Of a stretch of DNA of 64,000 nucleotides, positions 53,044 through 63,379 are shown in pieces. Position 1 is the first letter of the stretch, and each line of letters opens with the position of its first letter. Under the pieces are notes generated by a model. It did no database searches and was not told where the DNA came from. It worked only from the letters and a program-made list of their open reading frames with translations. This DNA is from Deltaproteobacteria bacterium. Its GTDB lineage: Bacteria; Desulfobacterota; GWC2-55-46; UBA9637. The DNA is taken from NCBI GenBank assembly GCA_030690165.1, contig JAUYHF010000055.1:67493-131492 (forward strand), given 5' to 3'. A program made the position numbers and the translations under genes.

Positions 53044-54189
53044 TTAAATCTTTTTGATGATCTGATTAGCCGTTTCTTCCTGAAATCTCTTTTGAATCGT
53101 TAGAATCTCATCCACCCCTTTAAAAAAGGCATCAGAGACTTGAGGGTCAAAATGACTCCCCTCGCCTTTTTTAATCTCACTGAGCGCCTCCTCATTTGAA
53201 AACGCGGGTTTATAGGGTCTTTTTGTGGTTAGGGCATCAAACACATCGCACACACCAATAATCTTTCCGGACAAAGGTATCTCATCGCTGTGAAGTCCGT
53301 GCGGATAACCGGTGCCGTCATACCTTTCATGGTGTGTGAGGGCTATCTCCTGGGCCTTCTGGAGAAGCCTTGATTCTGAAGTGGAAAGTATTAAGCCGCC
53401 AATGATGGAATGTGTCTTAATCTTTTCAAACTCCTCTGTTGTAAGTTTATCAGGCTTAAGCAGGATGGAGTCAGGCACGCCTATCTTTCCTATATCATGC
53501 ATTGGCGCTGCCGCAAATATATCTTCCACCTCATCGCTTTTCATGCCTACATTCCTTGCGACAACTGCTGAATAATGACCGAGTCTCATTATGTGATTGC
53601 CTGTTTGATCATCCCGGTATTCTGCTGCCCTGGAAAGCCTGTATACTGTCTCAAGTTCAGCGGTTTTTAATCTGTCATGGGTCTTATACGCATACGCCTC
53701 CATAGCAATGCTCATATCCAGAAAAAAGACCTTTGTGAATGCGTTAATAGCATGCCGCGCCTTTTCCGGTTTATCAGGATACTTAAGAAAGATGCGGTCT
53801 ATTGCAAACTGAAAAAAATGGGTGTATGCCCCTATATACCACCCGGGTCCGACCCCAATCCTTTCATGGGTATAAGCTATATTTAAACGGTCATTAAAGT
53901 AGTCCTTGCCATAATTCCCTTTTAACAGCTCTGTAAAGTATCCCTTCACCGACGGCTTCAATCTCTTTATGACATCCGTATCCATTATAAATACCGATGT
54001 CTCCTTTTGCTTTAATATATGCTCGCAAAAACCTTCAATAAATTCGTCTATATGCTGGGCAAAATCATCCTTCATGGCCATAATGGCTCTACTGTCCTTT
54101 TTTGTGACAGAGAGATATTGCAGCCATCTTTCCCTGTCATATCTATCCAGCGGTTTTTCTTTATGTATCCAGTCCCTGAGCGCCTTCAT
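53044..54189 (-). CDS. Globin-coupled HD-GYP c-di-GMP phosphodiesterase
   Basis: 381 residues. The N-terminal ~165 are a protoglobin-type sensor domain with the proximal-His region IAYTHERIGVGPGWYIGAYT (His108), so a haem-based O2 sensor. The C-terminal HD-GYP domain has HD at MHDIGKIGVPD (231-232), THHERYDGTGYP with GYP at 294-296, and the remaining metal ligands. It should hydrolyse c-di-GMP in response to O2. Its ATG overlaps the transglycosylase stop by 4 nt, so it is the last gene of the gas-vesicle operon. Activity and direction of control are inferred. Confidence 0.9.
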   Translation of the reverse strand: MKALRDWIHKEKPLDRYDRERWLQYLSVTKKDSRAIMAMKDDFAQHIDEFIEGFCEHILKQKETSVFIMDTDVIKRLKPSVKGYFTELLKGNYGKDYFNDRLNIAYTHERIGVGPGWYIGAYTHFFQFAIDRIFLKYPDKPEKARHAINAFTKVFFLDMSIAMEAYAYKTHDRLKTAELETVYRLSRAAEYRDDQTGNHIMRLGHYSAVVARNVGMKSDEVEDIFAAAPMHDIGKIGVPDSILLKPDKLTTEEFEKIKTHSIIGGLILSTSESRLLQKAQEIALTHHERYDGTGYPHGLHSDEIPLSGKIIGVCDVFDALTTKRPYKPAFSNEEALSEIKKGEGSHFDPQVSDAFFKGVDEILTIQKRFQEETANQIIKKI

Positions 54190-54764
54190 CCTTTAAACCC
54201 CTCCATTACCTTTAAGACCTTGCTGATGTATCTATCGTCTGCTGCGCCTGTTCCCCAGAAATATCGCTCTATACCCTTATGGTATCCCCATCTGCGGATA
54301 TTGTCAGCAAGGATAAAGGTACCCAATTGGATATTGGTATCTGTGGAAAAGAGGTCACCCTTAACCCCGAGTTCCTCTGCCATATGCGGCATGACCTGCA
54401 TCAGGCCGACTGCGCCCTTTGGGCTTACTGCATCTATCCTGCCATTGCTCTCCACAATAATAATTGCCATTACCAGTTCGGTGTCTATTCCCTGAAGGCC
54501 TGAATACTTTTCTACCATGCTGCATATAGTATAAATCTCTGAAATACCAAGTTTGGGATTGACCTTTGATAGCCTCTCACTCATGACAAGTATCTTCTCA
54601 TCCGAGATAAAACGCGCTTGGATTTCAGATTGCAGATATTTGATTCGCAGGGGCAATTCATGAATTGCCCCTACCCGGGACAGCGACATTTTTGTCTCTG
54701 CCAATTCATCAGTTGCGGCCGCCATTATTAAGAGAAAAAATGTGATAGATAGTATCGGTCTCAT
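54186..54764 (-). CDS. Lytic transglycosylase (SLT family) with a repeat-derived linker
   Basis: Cuts peptidoglycan glycan strands in the periplasm. A signal peptide (ILSITFFLLIMAAATDEL) leads to an SLT domain with catalytic Glu in AIIIVESNGRIDAVSPKGA, then GLMQVMPHMAEELG and NIQLGTFILADNIRRWG. Between them VGAIHELPLRIKYLQ is encoded by a perfect 22-bp palindrome (54650-54671), an in-frame repeat. 192 residues. It overlaps the Hsp70 gene and the HD-GYP gene by 4 nt each, so all three are translationally coupled. Confidence 0.88.
   Translation of the reverse strand: MRPILSITFFLLIMAAATDELAETKMSLSRVGAIHELPLRIKYLQSEIQARFISDEKILVMSERLSKVNPKLGISEIYTICSMVEKYSGLQGIDTELVMAIIIVESNGRIDAVSPKGAVGLMQVMPHMAEELGVKGDLFSTDTNIQLGTFILADNIRRWGYHKGIERYFWGTGAADDRYISKVLKVMEGFKG
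54650..54671. repeat. Perfect 22-bp palindrome inside the transglycosylase gene
   Basis: GGGGCAATTCA followed by TGAATTGCCCC, flanked by CAG and TACCC, is fully self-complementary. It is read in frame as GAIHELP. The similar repeat-like GGGCAATGCCC element in the DciA-like gene (45915-45925) suggests a related palindrome type. Confidence 0.8.
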
Positions 54765-56224
54765 ATCATCTCCGCCGGTATCTCCTCTATTCCATTGTCC
54801 GCCTGCCCCCGAATGCTTCTATCGGGGAACGAAGGTCTGGATATGGATGTAATCTCTACCATCCGCTCATTATCTGTATGGAGGTCTTTTGCTGAAACCT
54901 TAAGGATGCCATCGCTGTCAATGGTAAATTGCACCTCTAATCTGGGCGTCCCCGCCGGCATAGACGTGATATCAGTCAGCCTGAAATTTCCCAGACTCAT
55001 GTTGTATCTTGCCATGCCCTTTTCGCCCTGCAGGATATGGATATCAACAGAGGTCTGGTCATCTTCTGCTGTTGTAAATATCTTGTTCCTGGATACCGGT
55101 ATTTGGGTATTCCTGTCAATGAGCTTCGCAAATACCCCGCCCTGCGACTCAATGCCCAATGACAGCGGAGTAACATCCACCAGCACAACATCCCTCATCT
55201 CACCTGTTAATATCCCTGCCTGTATTGCTGCGCCAAGGGCAACTGCCTCGTCTGGATTAATATCCTTATATGGCTCTCTGCCGGTCAGTTTCCTTGCCAA
55301 TTCCTGCACCGCAGGCATCCTCGTTGCGCCGCCCACAAGGATAACCCTGTCTATCTCCTCATAGCAGAGCGCTGCATCAGCCAGCGCCTGCATAGTTGGT
55401 TCAACCAATCTCTTAACAAGGTCTGAGGTCATTTCCTCAAATCCTTTTCTTGTTAATGTAATTTCAAAAAGACCATTATTTTCCATGATGCCGGGAATAT
55501 TGATAGTGGTGGATAAGGCGCAAGACAGGGCAATCTTTGTTTCTTCTACTGTCTCTCTAAATCTTCTGAATTCTGTCTTCTGAGTAAGGAATCCATTGGA
55601 CAAACGTTCTGCAATCCGCTGGTCCCAGTCATCACCGCCGAGGTGTGTATCCCCATTCACAGCCCTGACCTCAAATATACCCTGACCTATCTCAAGTATA
55701 GACACATCAAAGGTGCCTCCGCCTAAATCCCAGACCATAACCGTATGCGTATCTTCCTTACCTAATCCATAGGCTAATGCCGCCGCAGTCGGCTCATTGA
55801 TTATCCTCTTTACCTCCAGCCCTGCGATGATACCGGCATCCCTTGTTGCCTGACGCTGTTCATTATTAAAATAGGCAGGGACAGTTATTACAGCCTTGTC
55901 TATATGTTCACCAAGGTATGCGCTGGCATTGGCCTTTATCTTTTGAAGTATCATGGCTGAAATCTCCTGCGGCGCATAATCTCTGCCGTTTAGATTAAAT
56001 CTGCGGCCGGTACCCATATGCCTTTTGACAGAGGCGATGGTTGTCTCTGCTGCATCCTGATTTTTTGCATCTCTGCCAACCAGTATCGCGCCATTAACAG
56101 ATGCCACAACCGATGGGAACAGCCTTTTCCCGAGAGCGTCAGGTATAATAATTGGCTGGCCTCCATCCATAAATGCCGCAACTGTATTGGTTGTTCCAAG
56201 GTCTATACCTATTATTTTTGACAT
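54761..56224 (-). CDS. Hsp70 (DnaK-like) without the C-terminal lid, in the gas-vesicle operon
   Basis: ATP-driven chaperone. The nucleotide-binding domain is complete: IGIDLGTTNT, NEPTAAALAYG, VWDLGGGTFDVSI, GGATRMPAV. The interdomain linker VLVDVTPLSLGIES and the beta substrate-binding domain (DRNTQIPVSRNKIF, VDIHILQGE, ILKVSAKD) follow. The protein ends at 487 residues, just after the beta domain, so the helical lid (about 130-150 residues in DnaK) is absent. The last ~25 residues include RPSFPDRSIRGQAD, encoded by a palindromic repeat (54801-54827). It overlaps the gvpA-like gene by 13 nt. Confidence 0.92.
   Translation of the reverse strand: MSKIIGIDLGTTNTVAAFMDGGQPIIIPDALGKRLFPSVVASVNGAILVGRDAKNQDAAETTIASVKRHMGTGRRFNLNGRDYAPQEISAMILQKIKANASAYLGEHIDKAVITVPAYFNNEQRQATRDAGIIAGLEVKRIINEPTAAALAYGLGKEDTHTVMVWDLGGGTFDVSILEIGQGIFEVRAVNGDTHLGGDDWDQRIAERLSNGFLTQKTEFRRFRETVEETKIALSCALSTTINIPGIMENNGLFEITLTRKGFEEMTSDLVKRLVEPTMQALADAALCYEEIDRVILVGGATRMPAVQELARKLTGREPYKDINPDEAVALGAAIQAGILTGEMRDVVLVDVTPLSLGIESQGGVFAKLIDRNTQIPVSRNKIFTTAEDDQTSVDIHILQGEKGMARYNMSLGNFRLTDITSMPAGTPRLEVQFTIDSDGILKVSAKDLHTDNERMVEITSISRPSFPDRSIRGQADNGIEEIPAEMI
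54801..54827. repeat. Palindromic repeat, copy 1 (C-terminus of the Hsp70 gene)
   Basis: GCCTGCCCCCGAATGCTTCT followed by ATCGGGG on the plus strand; CCCCGA and TCGGGG form the stem. It differs in about two bases from copy 2 (57665-57693) and from copy 3 (58363-58390, opposite strand) apart from the loop. It is translated as the end of the Hsp70. Confidence 0.85.
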
Positions 56225-56424
56225 ATCGCCTCGCCCCTGATCTCCTTATCCCACTCTTCCATAATCCCATATTTAAGCATTGTCTCCATTCCAGCTATGG
56301 CAGCGCCAAGATTGATGCCGAGCATTGGAATGCCTGCAAGGGAAATAATAATATCCGCGCGGATGACTATTCCTTTGTCTAAAACCCTGTCTAAAAGGTC
56401 TGTGAGCGTTACATTTCTTTCCAT
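56212..56424 (-). CDS. GvpA/GvpJ/GvpM-family gas-vesicle structural protein, short
   Basis: 70 residues: LTDLLDRVLDKGIVIRADII followed by ISLAGIPMLGINLGAAIAG and METMLKYG, the GvpA-family core of two helices and a beta hairpin. The KGIVI-A motif is conserved, but Asp-Ile-Ile replaces the Trp-containing segment of true GvpA, so it is more likely a minor J/M/S-type protein than the main shell protein. It overlaps gvpF at its start (16 nt) and the Hsp70 gene at its end (13 nt). Confidence 0.88.
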   Translation of the reverse strand: MERNVTLTDLLDRVLDKGIVIRADIIISLAGIPMLGINLGAAIAGMETMLKYGIMEEWDKEIRGEAICQK

Positions 56425-57206
56425 TGTGGGTTCCGTATCCTATCCAATCCAACAAAACTGTAAGGCGGCCAGGGCCCTGTGAAACGTACAGAGAGCCCAT
56501 TGATACTGCTGATCTTCTTTAGTTCTTCGCCTACATAGCTGCGGCTATCTTTTGGGACAAGGCATGACAGGTTCATAAGCATCTGCGTCTTCCCTTGTTT
56601 TCTTTTTATCTTTTCCACAAAGATGTCCTCAACATGCGCCTTTATTTGATTATATAATTTCTTAAAGCAGACTTCTGTCTCTGCCTCTATTTCATCTCTT
56701 AACCTCTTTTCAAATTTCTGTTTATACATATATGTGGCGCCGTCCCCGATGGATACATCCGGGGATTGTATTTCCCTCTGCAATCCCTTAAGTCCCGTGT
56801 CTCTCTCTACAACCCTTCCAGCAATCATGTCTATATCCCAGAATACCTGAATCCCATATTCTGCCTTGCCCCTGAACCGGCGAATTTTTTTACACATGGA
56901 TTCATATTCCTGTTTAAGCCATGCCTTTACATCCGCTGTGTTACCCTTAATAATAGTATTGAAGGTTATGGGAAGCGCTGTTCCAAACCTCTTCCATGCC
57001 TCATCAACCACCTGCTGATGTGTGATTATCCAGTTTATCATGGCATCTTCATCCTCTGAGTTATATGCCTTTGCCTCGCAGTTATGGACAACTGCTAAAA
57101 GGCTGCAAAAGGGGATGGTGTATACCTCTGCTTTTTCTATGCCGATATTTCCCAGTGATATATCTTCCCTGCCATCGGTTATACAATAAATGTATCTGCC
57201 ATCCAT
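56409..57206 (-). CDS. Gas-vesicle protein GvpF/GvpL family
   Basis: Accessory protein for vesicle nucleation. It starts MDGRYIYCITDG, the GvpF/L N-terminal strand, has the TALPITFNTI segment corresponding to the conserved V-PV-F-T motif, and ends with the characteristic TGPWPPYSFV. 265 residues. One of three GvpF/L paralogues in this operon. It overlaps the short gvpA-like gene by 16 nt. Confidence 0.93.
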   Translation of the reverse strand: MDGRYIYCITDGREDISLGNIGIEKAEVYTIPFCSLLAVVHNCEAKAYNSEDEDAMINWIITHQQVVDEAWKRFGTALPITFNTIIKGNTADVKAWLKQEYESMCKKIRRFRGKAEYGIQVFWDIDMIAGRVVERDTGLKGLQREIQSPDVSIGDGATYMYKQKFEKRLRDEIEAETEVCFKKLYNQIKAHVEDIFVEKIKRKQGKTQMLMNLSCLVPKDSRSYVGEELKKISSINGLSVRFTGPWPPYSFVGLDRIRNPQWKEM

Positions 57207-57229: not shown

Positions 57230-57381
57230 TTACGAATTAGGAATTACGAATTATGAATTCCTATAGCGGGTTCAAGTTTATAACTTGAACCCCAATAGTT
57301 CGTATCAAGGTAATCACGAAATTTATGGAGCAGGTTACAAACCTGCTCCCGCAAGTAATTCCTAATTTTTAATTCCTAATT
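57230..57381. repeat. Composite palindromic element, second copy, inverted
   Basis: Inner palindromes GGGTTCAAG...CTTGAACCC (from 57269) and GGAGCAGGT...ACCTGCTCC (to 57349) flank TTCGTATCAAGG, in the opposite orientation to the element at 52835-52946. They are enclosed by arms of AATTAGGAATTACGAATT and AATTCCTAATTTTTAATTCC type, overlapping the 3' end of gvpK. It fills the 162-nt spacer between gvpK and gvpF. Confidence 0.8.
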
Positions 57382-57656
57382 GTGTTATTAACCATCCCAT
57401 TTGCAAGATTATCCAGACTATCCCTAACTTTTTTCACGGACTCAGAAACTCCATAGTCCTCTTTTATCTCTTCAATAACCCTGTCAAGTTCCATTAACGT
57501 CCTGCCCAGCCTTTCTATCTCTTCGCCGGTTAAACTCACTCCATCCATTCGTCTGACTGCCTGCGTCTTAAGGATATCCCGTACAATCTCCACCACTGCA
57601 ATAACCAGACCCAAGACCCCCTGTTTCAAATTATCTTTATCTATGTCTATATTCAT
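57369..57656 (-). CDS. gvpK: Gas-vesicle protein GvpK
   Basis: 95-residue alpha-helical protein. It starts MNIDIDKDNLKQGVLGLVIA, followed by DILKTQAVRRMDGVSLTGEE and IERLGRTLMELD, all typical of GvpK, an essential accessory protein in several species. A longer in-frame opening to 57785 overlaps the gvpJ-like gene and has no GvpK similarity, so ATG 57656 is used. Bases of the palindromic repeat just upstream (57665-57693) provide the only purine-rich ribosome-site candidate. Confidence 0.93.
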   Translation of the reverse strand: MNIDIDKDNLKQGVLGLVIAVVEIVRDILKTQAVRRMDGVSLTGEEIERLGRTLMELDRVIEEIKEDYGVSESVKKVRDSLDNLANGMVNNTIRN

Positions 57657-57664
57657 GTCTTTAA

Positions 57665-57693
57665 GCCTGCCCTCGGATGCTTCTATCGGGGGG
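57665..57693. repeat. Palindromic repeat, copy 2 (gvpJ/gvpK junction)
   Basis: GCCTGCCCTCGGATGCTTCT followed by ATCGGGGGG. On the minus strand its CCCCGATAG supplies the stop codon of the gvpJ-like gene (CGA TAG), and its GAGGGCAGGC lies 9-17 nt before the gvpK start. Confidence 0.85.
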
Positions 57694-58048
57694 CCTGTGT
57701 TAATCCACCCGACTTGGCGCTCAACCATCCGCACCATGGACAACCACTGTTCAGAAGTTCTTCCACAGGTTGTCTCTTTTTGCATCCGGGGCAGTTTTCT
57801 TTTGACACCATTGCCTCATTCCATGCCGCTGTTTCAAGATTTGTGCCTAAGGGAAATGTCATGCCGTATTTTGCGGCAGTCTCAAATGAGGCAATGGCTG
57901 CCCGTATCCTTATGTTAAGGAGTTCAGCGCCTGCAACGGATATGGCAATGTCCGCATTGATGACAATCCCTTTATCCAGAACCCTGTCTATAACATCCGA
58001 CAGGGTAGCGCTGTCATTCATTGTTTTAATTCCTGCCTCTATAGTCAT
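57683..58048 (-). CDS. GvpJ-like gas-vesicle protein with a C-terminal zinc ribbon
   Basis: The first ~70 residues are a GvpA/J-family core (LSDVIDRVLDKGIVINADIA, ISVAGAELLNIRIRAAIASF, ETAAKYG). They are followed by a segment with CPGC, 13 residues and CPWC, which should bind one zinc. The last residues LTQAPR and the stop come from the palindromic repeat. 121 residues. It lies between gvpO and gvpK. The zinc ribbon could mediate contact with another Gvp protein; that is inference. Confidence 0.87.
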   Translation of the reverse strand: MTIEAGIKTMNDSATLSDVIDRVLDKGIVINADIAISVAGAELLNIRIRAAIASFETAAKYGMTFPLGTNLETAAWNEAMVSKENCPGCKKRQPVEELLNSGCPWCGWLSAKSGGLTQAPR

Positions 58049-58071: not shown

Positions 58072-58332
58072 TTATGGTTCCACAGTCTCCATCCGTTTAC
58101 GCATACGTTGACGGTTAAATTCCAGCAGATTACCGTTGTCATCCAGAGTTGCCTCGTATGTTGCCAGAATATCCATACCGTCAGGGATGGAATGTTTTTC
58201 TATCATCTCAACAAATACGTGCCATCCCTTTTCATCCTTAACTGTCTTTAGTGTAGTAACGAGATCCAGGCCTGTAACTTTATGAAGTTCATTCCTCGCC
58301 TTTAGAATCACATCTGTTATGTTCATTGTCAT
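58072..58332 (-). CDS. gvpO: Gas-vesicle protein GvpO
   Basis: 86 residues: ARNELHKVTGLDLVTTLKTV, GWHVFVEMIEKHSIPDGMDI, LATYEATLDDNGNLLEF match the GvpO family, which is needed for vesicle formation in haloarchaea. GGAGGG stands just before two closely spaced ATG codons (58332 and 58326). It lies 61 nt after gvpG and 23 nt before the gvpJ-like gene. Confidence 0.9.
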   Translation of the reverse strand: MTMNITDVILKARNELHKVTGLDLVTTLKTVKDEKGWHVFVEMIEKHSIPDGMDILATYEATLDDNGNLLEFNRQRMRKRMETVEP

Positions 58333-58393: not shown

Positions 58394-58627
58394 TCACTTT
58401 TGCTTTGCTATCTCCTCCATCCTCTCCATCAGTTCTGTCTCCCTCTCCTGATATTCTTCCTCTGTTATCTCTTCCAGTTCTAATTTCATTTGCAGGTCAA
58501 GCAGCGACTCCCGAATCTTTGACTCATCAAACTTCTCTGCCTCTGCTGCCTCTTTAATCTTTTCCGCCAGCCATACCACACCGTGGACAGGGGAAAAAAG
58601 TATGTCGTCTAATAGAAATGCCATCAC
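58394..58627 (-). CDS. gvpG: Gas-vesicle protein GvpG
   Basis: 77 residues: FLLDDILFSPVHGVVWLAEK, then a charged helix with LLDLQMKLELEEITEEEYQE, the classical GvpG pattern. GvpG interacts with GvpF/L-type proteins. Its ATG overlaps the stop of the GvpF/L-J gene by 4 nt, so the two are translationally coupled. Confidence 0.92.
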   Translation of the reverse strand: MMAFLLDDILFSPVHGVVWLAEKIKEAAEAEKFDESKIRESLLDLQMKLELEEITEEEYQERETELMERMEEIAKQK

Positions 58628-59643
58628 ACCACCTTTTTAATCACAATAACATCTCCGCTCATAGAGGGCCTGGCGCTGCCCTGAACGCAGTCCATCAGGG
58701 TTTCGTATGCCTGTTTTATCCCTTCAAACTTTTTTTGCGCCTCATGGTCTTCCGGATTTTTATCAGGGTGGAAAGCCTTTAGCATTACCCTGTAGGCAGC
58801 CCTTATCTCATCTTCTGCAGGCAGTTCGGCAAGCTCACTGTTTGACCATCTGTTTATCCTCATAACATCCATTGCCTTCGCTATCTCATGAATATTTATC
58901 CTCTTGATTTCCATTGTGGAAAAACTATAAGGTGGAAGCGGACCTATAATCCTGAAATTTACATCTCCTCCATATCTCTCATTCATGCTGTCAATTTCTT
59001 CATATAGTTTATGTATATTGTTCCTTTCTATCAGAAACGCCATATTCATTATCATCCTATCGTCCATGAGGTCATGCGTCCGGATGCCCGGGACATATCC
59101 TTTTAAATCTCCTAATATCTCATCTCGTATCCTGCCCGTTTCTTCATCGAGCGCCCTTTTGACCATCCTGCCAAGTTCTATGGCATATTCCTTCGATGGT
59201 CTTAATGCCGCCTCCTCCTTAAAGCTCTTTATATCCTTCTTTTTTCCAATCTCCTTTATTACCTCATCCAGATTATTCCATAACACCAGAACCTCAACCT
59301 GTGTCTTTCCATCCATTGCAAGAATGGCATTCTTGAATCCGGAATAGCCTGTATCTAATATCTCCATAATCTCTTCCTCATCCCTTGCAATGGTTCCAAA
59401 TTTTACAGGAATGACTGTAGAGGCTTTCATAAAGCCCTCAATAACCGATTGATGCTCGGTCAAATAACGGATAATGAGATCTCTGTCAGATGTGGCGCTG
59501 TATGCCGCAAAGGGGACATCCTTTACCACTGCGGAAATATCCTGATAAGGGATGGAATAGACATCGCCGTTTGATTTTGGACCGGTTGATTTTGCAACTG
59601 TCTTCCCATTAGTATTTGCAATACAATAAATGTGTTTAGCCAT
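58624..59643 (-). CDS. GvpF/GvpL-family protein fused to a C-terminal J domain
   Basis: Residues 1-~250 are a GvpF/L protein (KHIYCIANTNG, STVIPVKFGTIARDEEE, IIGPLPPYSFS). Residues ~268-318 form a J domain: SNSELAELPAEDEIRAAYRV, then the HPD tripeptide at 292-294 in MLKAFHPDKNPEDHEAQKKF and EGIKQAYETL. J domains stimulate Hsp70 ATPase, and an Hsp70 gene lies in the same operon, so the fusion probably recruits that chaperone to nascent vesicles. 339 residues. It starts 4 nt after the CDC48-type gene and overlaps gvpG by 4 nt. Confidence 0.93.
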   Translation of the reverse strand: MAKHIYCIANTNGKTVAKSTGPKSNGDVYSIPYQDISAVVKDVPFAAYSATSDRDLIIRYLTEHQSVIEGFMKASTVIPVKFGTIARDEEEIMEILDTGYSGFKNAILAMDGKTQVEVLVLWNNLDEVIKEIGKKKDIKSFKEEAALRPSKEYAIELGRMVKRALDEETGRIRDEILGDLKGYVPGIRTHDLMDDRMIMNMAFLIERNNIHKLYEEIDSMNERYGGDVNFRIIGPLPPYSFSTMEIKRINIHEIAKAMDVMRINRWSNSELAELPAEDEIRAAYRVMLKAFHPDKNPEDHEAQKKFEGIKQAYETLMDCVQGSARPSMSGDVIVIKKVV

Positions 59644-59647
59644 AAAT

Positions 59648-61777
59648 TTATTTCCTCTTTCTTATAGACTCCACTGCCCTTTCCATGTTTGCCATAGAGA
59701 TAGTTAATTCCTCTATATCCCTGCCTTTAATACTCAGAAACTGCCTTATTGCGAGAAGTGTTGCCTCCCTGCATATAGCCTCTATGTCAGAACCGGCCAC
59801 GCCATTGGTCAACATTGTCAAGGCATTAATATCCACATCTTCAGCAAGGGGTTTTCCCTTTGTATGGATCTTGAATATCTCAAGCCTTGCCTTTTCGTCG
59901 GGCATGGGCAGTTCACATATCACATCAAATCTGCCTGTTCTGAGAAGGGCCGGGTCAATGATGTCCATCCTGTTTGTGGCAGCCAGCACCACCACGCCCT
60001 TTAATTCCTCTATGCCGTCCATTTCTGTAAGGAACTGGCTGATGACCCGCTCAGTAACATGGGAATCACCGCCTCCCCTTGTGGGAACAAGCGAATCTAT
60101 CTCATCAAAAAACATAATACACGGCACTGCCTGTTTTGCCTTATGAAAGACCTCCCTCACCCCCCTCTCACTCTCGCCGACCCACTTTGATAATATCTCC
60201 GGGCCCTTGATGGATATAAAATTGCCCTCGCTCTCGGTGGCAAGCGCCTTTGCCATCATGGTCTTTCCTGTGCCTGGGGCGCCGTGTAAAAGTATGCCCT
60301 TCGGGGGTCTTGTCCGCGCATATCTAAAGAGTTCAGGGTGTTTTAACGGCAGTTCAACTGCATCTATCAGGGTCTGTTTTATATCATACATACCGCCTAT
60401 ATCCGACCACCGGACATCAGGGACCTCTACAAAGACCTCCCTCAAACATGACGGTTCAACATCCTTCAGGGCCTCAATAAAATCGTCCATCGTTACCTCT
60501 AATTTAATCAGGGTTTCATAAGGCACCTCATCAAGATGAAAGTCTATCGACGGGAATATCTTTCTTAAGGTAGCCATTGCCGCCTCCCTGCAGAGCGCCT
60601 CAAGGTCAGCTCCGACAAACCCGTGTGTAATCTGGGATATCCTCTGCAGGTCAACATCCTGCGCCAACGGCATTCCCCTTGTATGTATTGTGATGATCTC
60701 CAGCCTGCCGTTTTTATCAGGTATGCTTATCTCTATCTCCCTGTCAAACCTCCCCGGTCTTCTAAGCGCAGGGTCAACCATATTTGGAAGGTTTGTGGCG
60801 CCGATAACGATTACCTGTCCCCTGGATTCCAGTCCATCCATCAATGCAAGGAGCTGGGCGACAACCCTTCTCTCCACCTGTTTTTCCGCGCCCATCTCTT
60901 CCCGTTTTGGCGCAATCGCGTCTATCTCATCAAGGAATATTATTGCAGGGGCGTTAGACGATGCTGTCTCAAATATCTTTCTTAAGTGCGCCTCGCTCTC
61001 GCCGTAAAACTTGTGCATAATCTCAGGCCCGCTCAGATGGGTAAAATATGCGTCTGTTTCATTTGCAACAGCCCTCGCAATAAGGGTCTTTCCGCAGCCC
61101 GGCGGCCCGTGTAAAAAAACCCCCTTTGGCGCATCTATGCCAAGCCTTTCAAATACCTGAGGGTGTCTTAAAGGCAGTTCTATCATCTCCCGTATCCTGC
61201 GTATCTCTTTTTTTAGTCCGCCAATATCCTCATATGATATCCGCGCCCTTTCCGGGGACTTCTTCTCTTCCTTTCTTGTTTTTATTTCAATAATAGTCTT
61301 TGGATGGATGACCACCACATCCCTTGGTATAACAGCCCCAACCAAAAAATCATGGCTTCTGGTTCCAAAAAGGGTTGCCCTTATCCTGTCGCCTTCCACA
61401 AGAGGCAGCCCATCTAACAGACTGCTTAAATATCTCATATCCCCTATTGCCCCTCTCAAAAAGGTAACGGGAGATAAAATAACCCTCTGTGCTGGTTTAT
61501 ACGGCATCTTCTCAATTGCAGTCTTTTCATCTAATCCTATCTGCGCATTCTGTCTTATGAGGCCATCGGCCTGAATAATACCCTTGCCCCTGTCCTCAAT
61601 ATATGTGGGCATGACCTTGGCAACAGTCTTGCGCTTGCCTGTGATCTGCACAATATCTCCCACCTCAACACCAAGGGTTGTCATATCTGAAGGGTCTATT
61701 CTGGCAATGCCTCTGCCTACATCCTTTGTCCTTGCCTCTGAAACACGCAAGTTTAATATGCCTGACGATTCCGACAT
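59648..61777 (-). CDS. CDC48/VCP-type double AAA+ ATPase in the gas-vesicle operon
   Basis: 709 residues: an N-terminal double-psi-barrel domain ([20 protein letters not shown]; residues ~1-165), D1 with Walker A GPPGCGKT (~224-231) and Walker [11 protein letters not shown], and D2 with GAPGTGKT and [10 protein letters not shown]. Second-region-of-homology arginines are present in both modules. CDC48 proteins unfold or remodel protein complexes. Gas-vesicle operons usually carry the smaller AAA protein GvpN, which is not in this window. It lies between gvpH and the GvpF/L-J gene with 1-4 nt spacers. Confidence 0.94.
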
Positions 61778-61778
61778 T

Positions 61779-62327
61779 TCATGCCCTCTTTTCCATTTTT
61801 ATTTCCATTACCCCATTTTTATAAGCAGAGGTAAGCGTGGATGTATTTACGCGGGACGGAAGTGTAATATTCTTTCTATATTTTCTTTCCTTGCCATCTG
61901 CCTTGAGGGTAAGCAGATCATCATTCACATCAACATGAATATCACCCTTTTCCACTCCAGGCATCTCAGCAATAACTAATATATGATCTTTTTCATCAAA
62001 CACATCTACCATGGGCTCTCTCACCTCCTCTACTACAGGCCCCTCCGGGCTCTCCTTGATATTTCCAAACGGCTCTACTATCGGCTTTCCCCCCAATGTC
62101 CTGATGGAAAATCCATAAACACCTTTTACCTCTTTGCCCCCTTTGCCAAAACCCTTTAGTTCGCCTTCTTTTCTGATTGCTTCTCCCTTTTCAGCAACCT
62201 TGCCAGCCATATCTATCAGGTCGCCCAGCCCTTTGAATATCCCGCCGAGGGAAATCTTTCCCACACCAAAGTCAATTACCCCTTCCTCCTCTTTTTTTGC
62301 TTCTGCTTTTTTCTTTTCAGCCGACAT
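61779..62327 (-). CDS. gvpH: Gas-vesicle GvpH, Hsp20-like
   Basis: 182 residues. The N-terminal part is charged and Gly-rich ([20 protein letters not shown]), a GvpH feature. The C-terminal ~85 residues form an alpha-crystallin fold ([50 protein letters not shown]). It should act as a holdase for hydrophobic Gvp subunits. It ends 1 nt before the CDC48-type gene. Confidence 0.9.
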
Positions 62328-62432: not shown

Positions 62433-63203
62433 TCATTTCCACTCCACCACTATATTTACAAAGTTAAACGGCGGCGCCGGACCCACATATTTTATCTTCA
62501 GCCTTTCGTTGTGGGCTGCGTCAAACCCTTCTACCTTTTCGTCAAATTCCTTTATCCGCGTCATACCAACTAAAAATGCCGCATTTAAAACCATATTATC
62601 TCCATAGACCTGATTGGTGCGGGTATCTATAGAAATAGTCTTTAAGGAGTTCATCATCTTATCTGCCTCTGCCTCTTTTTTTCTCTTTAATCTTGCCTGC
62701 ACCATCTTACCCAGGTTAATTCTGTCGCCATAAGTCTTGCCAGACGGCATTGCCGCTGTCTTATCCCTCAACCGTTTAATCTCCTCATCTTCCTGTAATA
62801 TCTCCTGAAAGACTGCGTCTATATCCTTCCACACAGCCTTAATCCCCAGTTCTATCTTATTGTCCATATCCCTTAATAGTTTCTTAAACTCTTCATATCT
62901 TTTTCTCAAAAGCCCCCGGATATCTTCTATACTATCGGCAATGGTAGAAAACCTCACAGGAAGCACAGTATGTTCCTTCATAACCCTTTCAATGACACGT
63001 TGGTGCGCCAGCAGATTCCCTCTGTTTAAGACATATTTTGTCTCAGGAGATTTACTGATAACAGCAGAGATGTCCTCATAACCTGCGGTAGTAACCGCAT
63101 CGCCTCTCCCGCCGATCCCGATATCCCCGAAGTTTATAGCCTCTCCCGTCCCTATTATGCAGTAAAGGTAGCTACCTTCCCCTGTTCTCTCTGCCTTTTC
63201 CAA
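62433..63203 (-). CDS. Gas-vesicle protein GvpF/GvpL family, likely TTG start
   Basis: Third GvpF/L paralogue, about 256 residues: YLYCIIGTGEAINFGDIGIG, HTVLPVRFSTIADSIEDIRG and the C-terminal KIKYVGPAPPFNFVNIVVEW. No ATG or GTG stands just before the first strand. A longer frame to ATG 63305 gives an unlikely Gly/Lys-rich leader that overlaps the well-formed gene at 63155-63379. TTG 63203 has GGGAGG 7 nt upstream and gives a normal N-terminus, so I use it. Confidence 0.87.
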   Translation of the reverse strand: MEKAERTGEGSYLYCIIGTGEAINFGDIGIGGRGDAVTTAGYEDISAVISKSPETKYVLNRGNLLAHQRVIERVMKEHTVLPVRFSTIADSIEDIRGLLRKRYEEFKKLLRDMDNKIELGIKAVWKDIDAVFQEILQEDEEIKRLRDKTAAMPSGKTYGDRINLGKMVQARLKRKKEAEADKMMNSLKTISIDTRTNQVYGDNMVLNAAFLVGMTRIKEFDEKVEGFDAAHNERLKIKYVGPAPPFNFVNIVVEWK

Positions 63204-63379
63204 AAATCTGCCTCCCTTTCCAGCGCTGACACTCCGGGGTTTATCCTCCCCCTCTCCAGCGCCCTTGCCCTTTCCCTTGCCATAAGGGTTCTGGCAAGAC
63301 GCCATAGAGATGCTGAATTAAGCCTTGTGTTTTTGCCTTTGTTCACCACTGTCTCTAATTCATAAGATTTCCAATCCAT
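63155..63379 (-). CDS. Small basic protein of unknown function in the gas-vesicle operon
   Basis: 74 residues, Arg-rich and helical: MDWKSYELETVVNKGKNTRL, ASLWRLARTLMARERARALE, PGVSALEREADFWKRQREQ. AAAGGAGAG precedes the ATG by a few bases, which supports translation. Its 3' end overlaps the GvpF/L gene by 49 nt if that starts at TTG 63203. I do not recognise a named Gvp family. Confidence 0.65.
   Translation of the reverse strand: MDWKSYELETVVNKGKNTRLNSASLWRLARTLMARERARALERGRINPGVSALEREADFWKRQREQGKVATFTA

Follow-up and report, generated by a model that had tools for sequence, protein, structure and literature searches.

The gas-vesicle gene cluster described here encodes a protein, GvpF-J, in which a GvpF/L-family domain is followed by a C-terminal J domain with an intact HPD motif (Table 1). 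The cluster lies in a 64,000-nucleotide stretch of DNA from a Deltaproteobacteria bacterium, and this whole stretch is referred to below as the window. We think it somewhat probable that GvpF-J serves gas-vesicle biogenesis as a dedicated class-C J protein, which would recruit Hsp70 to GvpA-type shell proteins for assembly. J proteins and GvpF/L proteins are each well known; their fusion, its conservation, and the existence of Hsp70-bearing gas-vesicle clusters appear to be undescribed in the open-access literature.

Table 1. Positions of GvpF-J, its parts and the neighbouring genes in the window
Feature	Position	Strand	Evidence and remarks
GvpF-J, GvpF/L-family protein with C-terminal J domain	58624..59643	-	339 aa; 20 homologues with the same architecture
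GvpL_GvpF domain, residues 4-242	58918..59634	-	Pfam PF06386, E 6.6e-51; Foldseek GvpF 6l5d, E 7e-8, also 4qsg
J domain, residues 251-321 (~70 residues)	58681..58893	-	Pfam DnaJ; AlphaFold2 models; Foldseek 5nro_B
HPD motif, residues 292-294	58762..58770	-	Read directly; invariant in 20/20 homologues
GvpF-J C-terminal tail, residues 322-339 (18 residues)	58627..58680	-	Beta strand modelled near the end
CDC48-family double AAA ATPase	59648..61777	-	NCBIfam TIGR01243, 942.8 bits, above cut-off; 4 bp upstream of GvpF-J
Hsp20-family small heat-shock protein	61779..62327	-	NCBIfam NF041800, above cut-off; Pfam HSP20
Canonical GvpF-type paralogue	62433..63305	-	Closest NCBIfam GvpF, 126 bits, below cut-off; tree
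GvpG	58394..58627	-	Pfam GvpG, E 2.7e-21
GvpO	58072..58332	-	Pfam GvpO, E 4.1e-17
GvpA-family (GvpJ-like) protein	57683..58048	-	Pfam Gas_vesicle, E 1.4e-15; best NCBIfam GvpJ, 94.8 bits, below cut-off
GvpK	57369..57785	-	Pfam GvpK, E 3.7e-20
GvpL	56409..57206	-	NCBIfam NF045778, 203.9 bits, cut-off 200
Second GvpA-family protein	56212..56424	-	Pfam Gas_vesicle, E 3.1e-16; directly before the Hsp70 gene
Operon Hsp70, 487 aa	54761..56224	-	Pfam HSP70, E 2.6e-173; alignment with E. coli DnaK

The initial annotation had read this open reading frame as a GvpF/L protein joined to a J domain, and both Pfam models do match it above their cut-offs. PF06386 scores 174.1 bits (cut-off 23.6) and aligns at profile positions 3-244 of 245, i.e., over its whole length; DnaJ scores 49.7 bits (cut-off 27.8; E 4e-13) at residues 276-318, inside the interval of 268-318 that had been proposed for the J domain. 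The HPD motif had also been placed correctly, at residues 292-294; these correspond to bases 58770-58762. With a J domain above the cut-off and an intact HPD, GvpF-J is a J-domain protein; it is not DnaJ proper, since TIGR02349 gives 39.8 bits against a cut-off of 377.2, with the match confined to residues 277-318. The proposed interval of about 50 residues, 268-318, contains a genuine J domain but is not the entire domain, whose limits are approximately 251-321 and include helix I (about 251-260). The gene starts 4 bp past the stop of the Cdc48-type ATPase gene, and its own stop overlaps the start of gvpG.

Structure prediction agrees with these limits. In AlphaFold2 models of the whole protein, calculated with five sequences, helices I, II and III of the J domain span residues 251-260, 277-291 and 300-321, respectively; the overall pLDDT is low (62), and block means in the J part range from 63 to 87. 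When the J part was modelled alone, with three sequences, the pLDDT was 82.7 and the pTM 0.73. The best PDB match of the latter model is the DnaK-bound J domain of E. coli DnaJ (5nro_B; rmsd 1.4 Å over 62 columns, TMt 0.77), and by this match the predicted model has the three-helix J fold. The Foldseek E value of 0.014 is as expected with so short a domain, and the leading twelve matches are all J domains. For the whole model, the top Foldseek matches are the GvpF structures 6l5d and 4qsg.

The Pfam DnaJ profile covers positions 13-55 only, yet the J domain is complete. The match probably begins at profile position 13 because of an eight-residue insert in the loop between helices I and II, which distinguishes the window protein from most homologues and is mostly absent from the congener. 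Helix I of the window protein is divergent as well; in homologues it reads A..xLGL....AT and lies soon after the final strand of the GvpF domain. Equivalents of DnaJ R22 and Y25 are retained, and the CSF..D motif of the tail, common in homologues, has been lost from the window protein.

Our searches identified 20 GvpF-J proteins, which belong to three lineages; the idea that the fusion is unique to the source genome was therefore rejected. A gene-fusion artefact or frameshift was likewise ruled out by the occurrence of the same continuous fusion in 20 genomes or records. A search of the class yielded fusions in the congener (85% identity) and six other genomes; across the phylum, 11 of 395 sampled genomes have the fusion and 28 have any GvpF/L match (E 1e-12), and in the phylum of a Kiritimatiellaeota MAG it is found in 4 of 289 genomes. 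Scanning of genome contigs returned two loci only. The fusion is also present on the Octadecabacter arcticus plasmid pOA238_160 (NC_020910; protein WP_015497776.1). The plasmid record gives it no name beyond GvpL/GvpF family protein, and DnaJ is not mentioned where the O. arcticus genome paper treats the gas-vesicle cluster. Note that the fusion is not a general requirement, as many gas-vesicle clusters are without it.

In the alignment of the 20 proteins, ten window columns are invariant throughout, three of which form the HPD, and the GvpF part and the J core have mean pairwise identities of approximately 31% and 35%, respectively. In the comparison of window and congener, dN/dS is 0.30 in the GvpF part and 0.26 in the J core (few substitutions), values that indicate purifying selection on the J core. 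As judged from sequence, the fusion is not a product of chance: in addition to this selection and the conserved HPD, all 17 scanned homologues match both Pfam models. Two open reading frames of this type stand out. The GvpF-J at L066:1199-2608 carries an N-terminal Hsp20-like stretch, which may reflect an additional fusion or a deletion that brought two genes together. The GvpF-J-like frame L068:9858-10484 is truncated, with 43-47% identity to residues 2-171; no other gas-vesicle gene was recognised within 19 kb, and it looks like the remnant of a lost cluster.

The operon in the window encodes three GvpF/L proteins. GvpF-J scores below the cut-offs of both NCBIfam equivalogs, with 72 bits against 350 for GvpF (NF052351, cyanobacterial type) and 59.2 bits against 200 for GvpL (NF045778). 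We constructed a tree of 107 GvpF/L proteins from which the J part had been trimmed, except in three of the 20 fusions where the trimming motif was not found and the J part was retained. In this tree, all 20 fusions share one branch (SH-aLRT 89) with a single J-less protein, and this branch lies on the canonical-GvpF side rather than the GvpL side. By profile and tree, GvpF-J is a third GvpF/L paralogue, nearer to canonical GvpF than to GvpL, both of which are encoded alongside it. The J-less member, L093:8971-9963, is a second copy in its genome; its J domain is largely lost, HPD included, and its tail is still recognisable. A clade of all 20 J fusions that excludes every J-less protein was rejected (AU p 0.0004). 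Since L093:8971-9963 is nested in the clade and the forced grouping was rejected, one gain and one later loss of the J domain would be the simplest history, which we hold with moderate confidence.

In the order of transcription, the cluster consists of GvpA (past the window end), GvpN, two small ORFs, GvpF, Hsp20, Cdc48, GvpF-J, GvpG, GvpO, a GvpA-family gene, GvpK, GvpL, a second GvpA-family gene, Hsp70, a lytic transglycosylase gene and an HD-domain gene. Largely the same gene set occurs in other members of the class and in distant families of the phylum, and Cdc48 is adjacent or near in J clusters wherever the stretch is assembled, with the exception of Octadecabacter; Hsp20 is usually a neighbour as well. 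The true start of GvpK is probably about 42 codons downstream, since homologues align from residue 44. The 5' end of the GvpF ORF is also covered, in a different frame, by a 74-codon ORF (63155-63379), a homologue of which (L066:64-318) precedes GvpF elsewhere; the start of GvpF is therefore also probably further downstream. The lytic transglycosylase gene (54186-54764) overlaps the end of the Hsp70 gene and has relatives in or beside the gas-vesicle clusters L063, L064, L065 and L069. In another gas-vesicle cluster, the GvpA-family and Hsp70 genes are separated by a gene with histidine kinase and response-regulator domains (L062:2326-3711).

The initial annotation further held that the cognate Hsp70 is encoded in the same operon. 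The cluster does contain an Hsp70 gene in the same orientation, but the pairing is not obligate: a cluster Hsp70 is found in 11 of the 17 assessable J clusters, not in every one as would be expected of a dedicated pair. This count includes G163 and G178 as positive, where Hsp70 is encoded, along with the remainder of the cluster, on a second contig. The J clusters without Hsp70 are those of Octadecabacter, L064, L065, L091, L094 and G437, and two of them contain a single-domain ArsA-type ATPase just before Cdc48 (L094:6723-7628 and L065:5006-6079). Among J-less clusters, none of the eight examined has Hsp70, and several of these have Cdc48; L106, L108 and L119, Hsp70-containing clusters cut upstream by a contig end, were left out. 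The raw association of J and Hsp70 is significant (Fisher p 0.003). However, on the Cdc48 tree the clusters with both, those with J only and those without J form one clade each, so that they represent a single historical contrast rather than independent replicates, and we dropped the association as statistical proof of co-occurrence. The operon Hsp70 is a plausible cognate partner of GvpF-J.

Several properties of the operon Hsp70s bear on this partnership. In an unrooted tree, they cluster separately from E. coli DnaK and the two full-length DnaK proteins of the source genome (support 100/99), which also encodes one GrpE. All 13 operon Hsp70s keep the residues equivalent to DnaK R167 and D393, which we take to be J-domain contact sites in the DnaK-DnaJ complex. 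Alignment with E. coli DnaK shows that the window Hsp70 has no SBD-alpha lid and a short subdomain IB; most other operon Hsp70s retain the lid, and L059:3810-5465 is also shortened. Without the lid, the window Hsp70 may hold clients differently.

It is conceivable, albeit not likely, that GvpF-J is a functional J protein whose partner is housekeeping DnaK, with the operon Hsp70 serving another step; such an arrangement would be compatible with either assembly or turnover. The six J clusters that lack an Hsp70 gene, the two full-length DnaK proteins and GrpE of the source genome, and the lidless form of the window Hsp70 are all in its favour. On the other hand, the Hsp70 gene, where present, is preceded by a GvpA-family gene (in most clusters immediately), the operon Hsp70s are a group of their own, and Hsp70 is absent from every complete J-less cluster examined.

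We return to the preferred reading, in which the J domain serves assembly. The GvpF-like domain of GvpF-J would bind a hydrophobic GvpA-family protein (GvpA or GvpJ/M-type tip proteins) or a nucleation complex, the J domain would trigger ATP hydrolysis by Hsp70 via its HPD, and Hsp70 would capture the client, keep it soluble and pass it to the growing shell. A J domain with an intact HPD stimulates Hsp70. In the source genome the likely partner would be the operon Hsp70, with housekeeping DnaK as the alternative; where a cluster has no Hsp70 gene, only housekeeping DnaK could take this part. The J activity, the partner, the client and the preference for assembly over turnover are all inferred.

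The first step relies on work with other GvpF proteins. That GvpF/L proteins bind GvpA, as the initial annotation had it, is correct for GvpF of Halobacterium but not for GvpL, which binds other Gvp proteins (PMC9501494). Because the fused protein is neither canonical GvpF nor GvpL, GvpA binding by GvpF-J is carried over by analogy. GvpF has been proposed as a transient chaperone of GvpA2 that is superseded by GvpG (2024 interaction study, PMC11445434), and its role as a GvpA chaperone is also considered in PMC9501494 and PMC10903477. The text of PMC11445434 makes no mention of Hsp or DnaK, and Hsp70-type factors were not pursued there. The gene order Cdc48, GvpF-J, GvpG would fit a hand-over chain. 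More speculatively, GvpF-J, the lidless Hsp70, the Cdc48-type unfoldase and Hsp20 could constitute a dedicated Hsp70 system, encoded by one lineage of gas-vesicle clusters, that inserts or proofreads shell subunits by means of ATP. Gas-vesicle assembly would then be a chaperone-machine process, an extension that we regard as possible but doubtful.

The main rival to assembly is Cdc48-linked turnover, in which GvpF-J, in the manner of auxilin, would direct Hsp70 along with the Cdc48-type unfoldase to defective or completed shells for the extraction of subunits. We consider this unlikely and favour assembly: a Cdc48-type double AAA ATPase does adjoin GvpF-J or lie near it in nearly all clusters, and auxilin J domains are among the weaker Foldseek matches of the GvpF-J model, but gas-vesicle clusters without the J fusion have Cdc48 too, the known role of GvpF/L proteins is in assembly and not disassembly, and the position of the GvpF-J gene suggests that it is coexpressed with assembly genes. 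It is very improbable that the J-like tail survives as a structural relic with no Hsp70 function, given the HPD kept in 20 of 20 proteins while most other columns vary, the predicted J fold and the purifying selection, even though the window copy has the loop insertion, the divergent helix I and the lost tail motif, and L093:8971-9963 has lost its HPD.

These observations address the question of how the very hydrophobic GvpA stays soluble and is inserted. A natural protein that combines a GvpF-type domain with a J domain provides evidence from genomes that Hsp70 can be tied to this step. Its retention in about 20 distant bacteria suggests deliberate recruitment of Hsp70 to build or remodel gas vesicles, an idea also relevant to gas vesicles engineered for ultrasound imaging. 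In the open-access literature (a scope outside which fall most subscription papers and all bioRxiv preprints), we found no description of the fusion, its conservation or Hsp70-bearing gas-vesicle clusters.

Among known systems, the GvpF/GvpL family (PF06386; 4qsg, 6l5d) shares with GvpF-J the full-length GvpF/L domain and a cluster with GvpA, N, F, L, G, O and K; GvpF-J differs as a third paralogue, below both NCBIfam cut-offs, with an added J domain and tail. It resembles class-C J proteins (Hsp40, PF00226; 5nro) in having helices I-III, the HPD and a J domain joined to a client- or site-specific domain. It differs in that it has no G/F, zinc-finger or DnaJ C-terminal domains, its J domain is C-terminal and followed by a short strand, and its targeting domain is one of gas vesicles. 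Auxilin, which serves in clathrin uncoating, is the J protein that brings Hsc70 to clathrin coats. It too has a C-terminal J domain, which a shell-binding domain targets to a protein shell; this is an analogy only, since the binding domains are unrelated and GvpF-J more likely acts in assembly. Finally, the gas-vesicle clusters with ArsA and Hsp20 (PMC2963123) are similar in that chaperone-type ATPases and Hsp20 are encoded within them, but those clusters carry ArsA, whereas the window cluster carries Cdc48, Hsp70 and the GvpF-J fusion.
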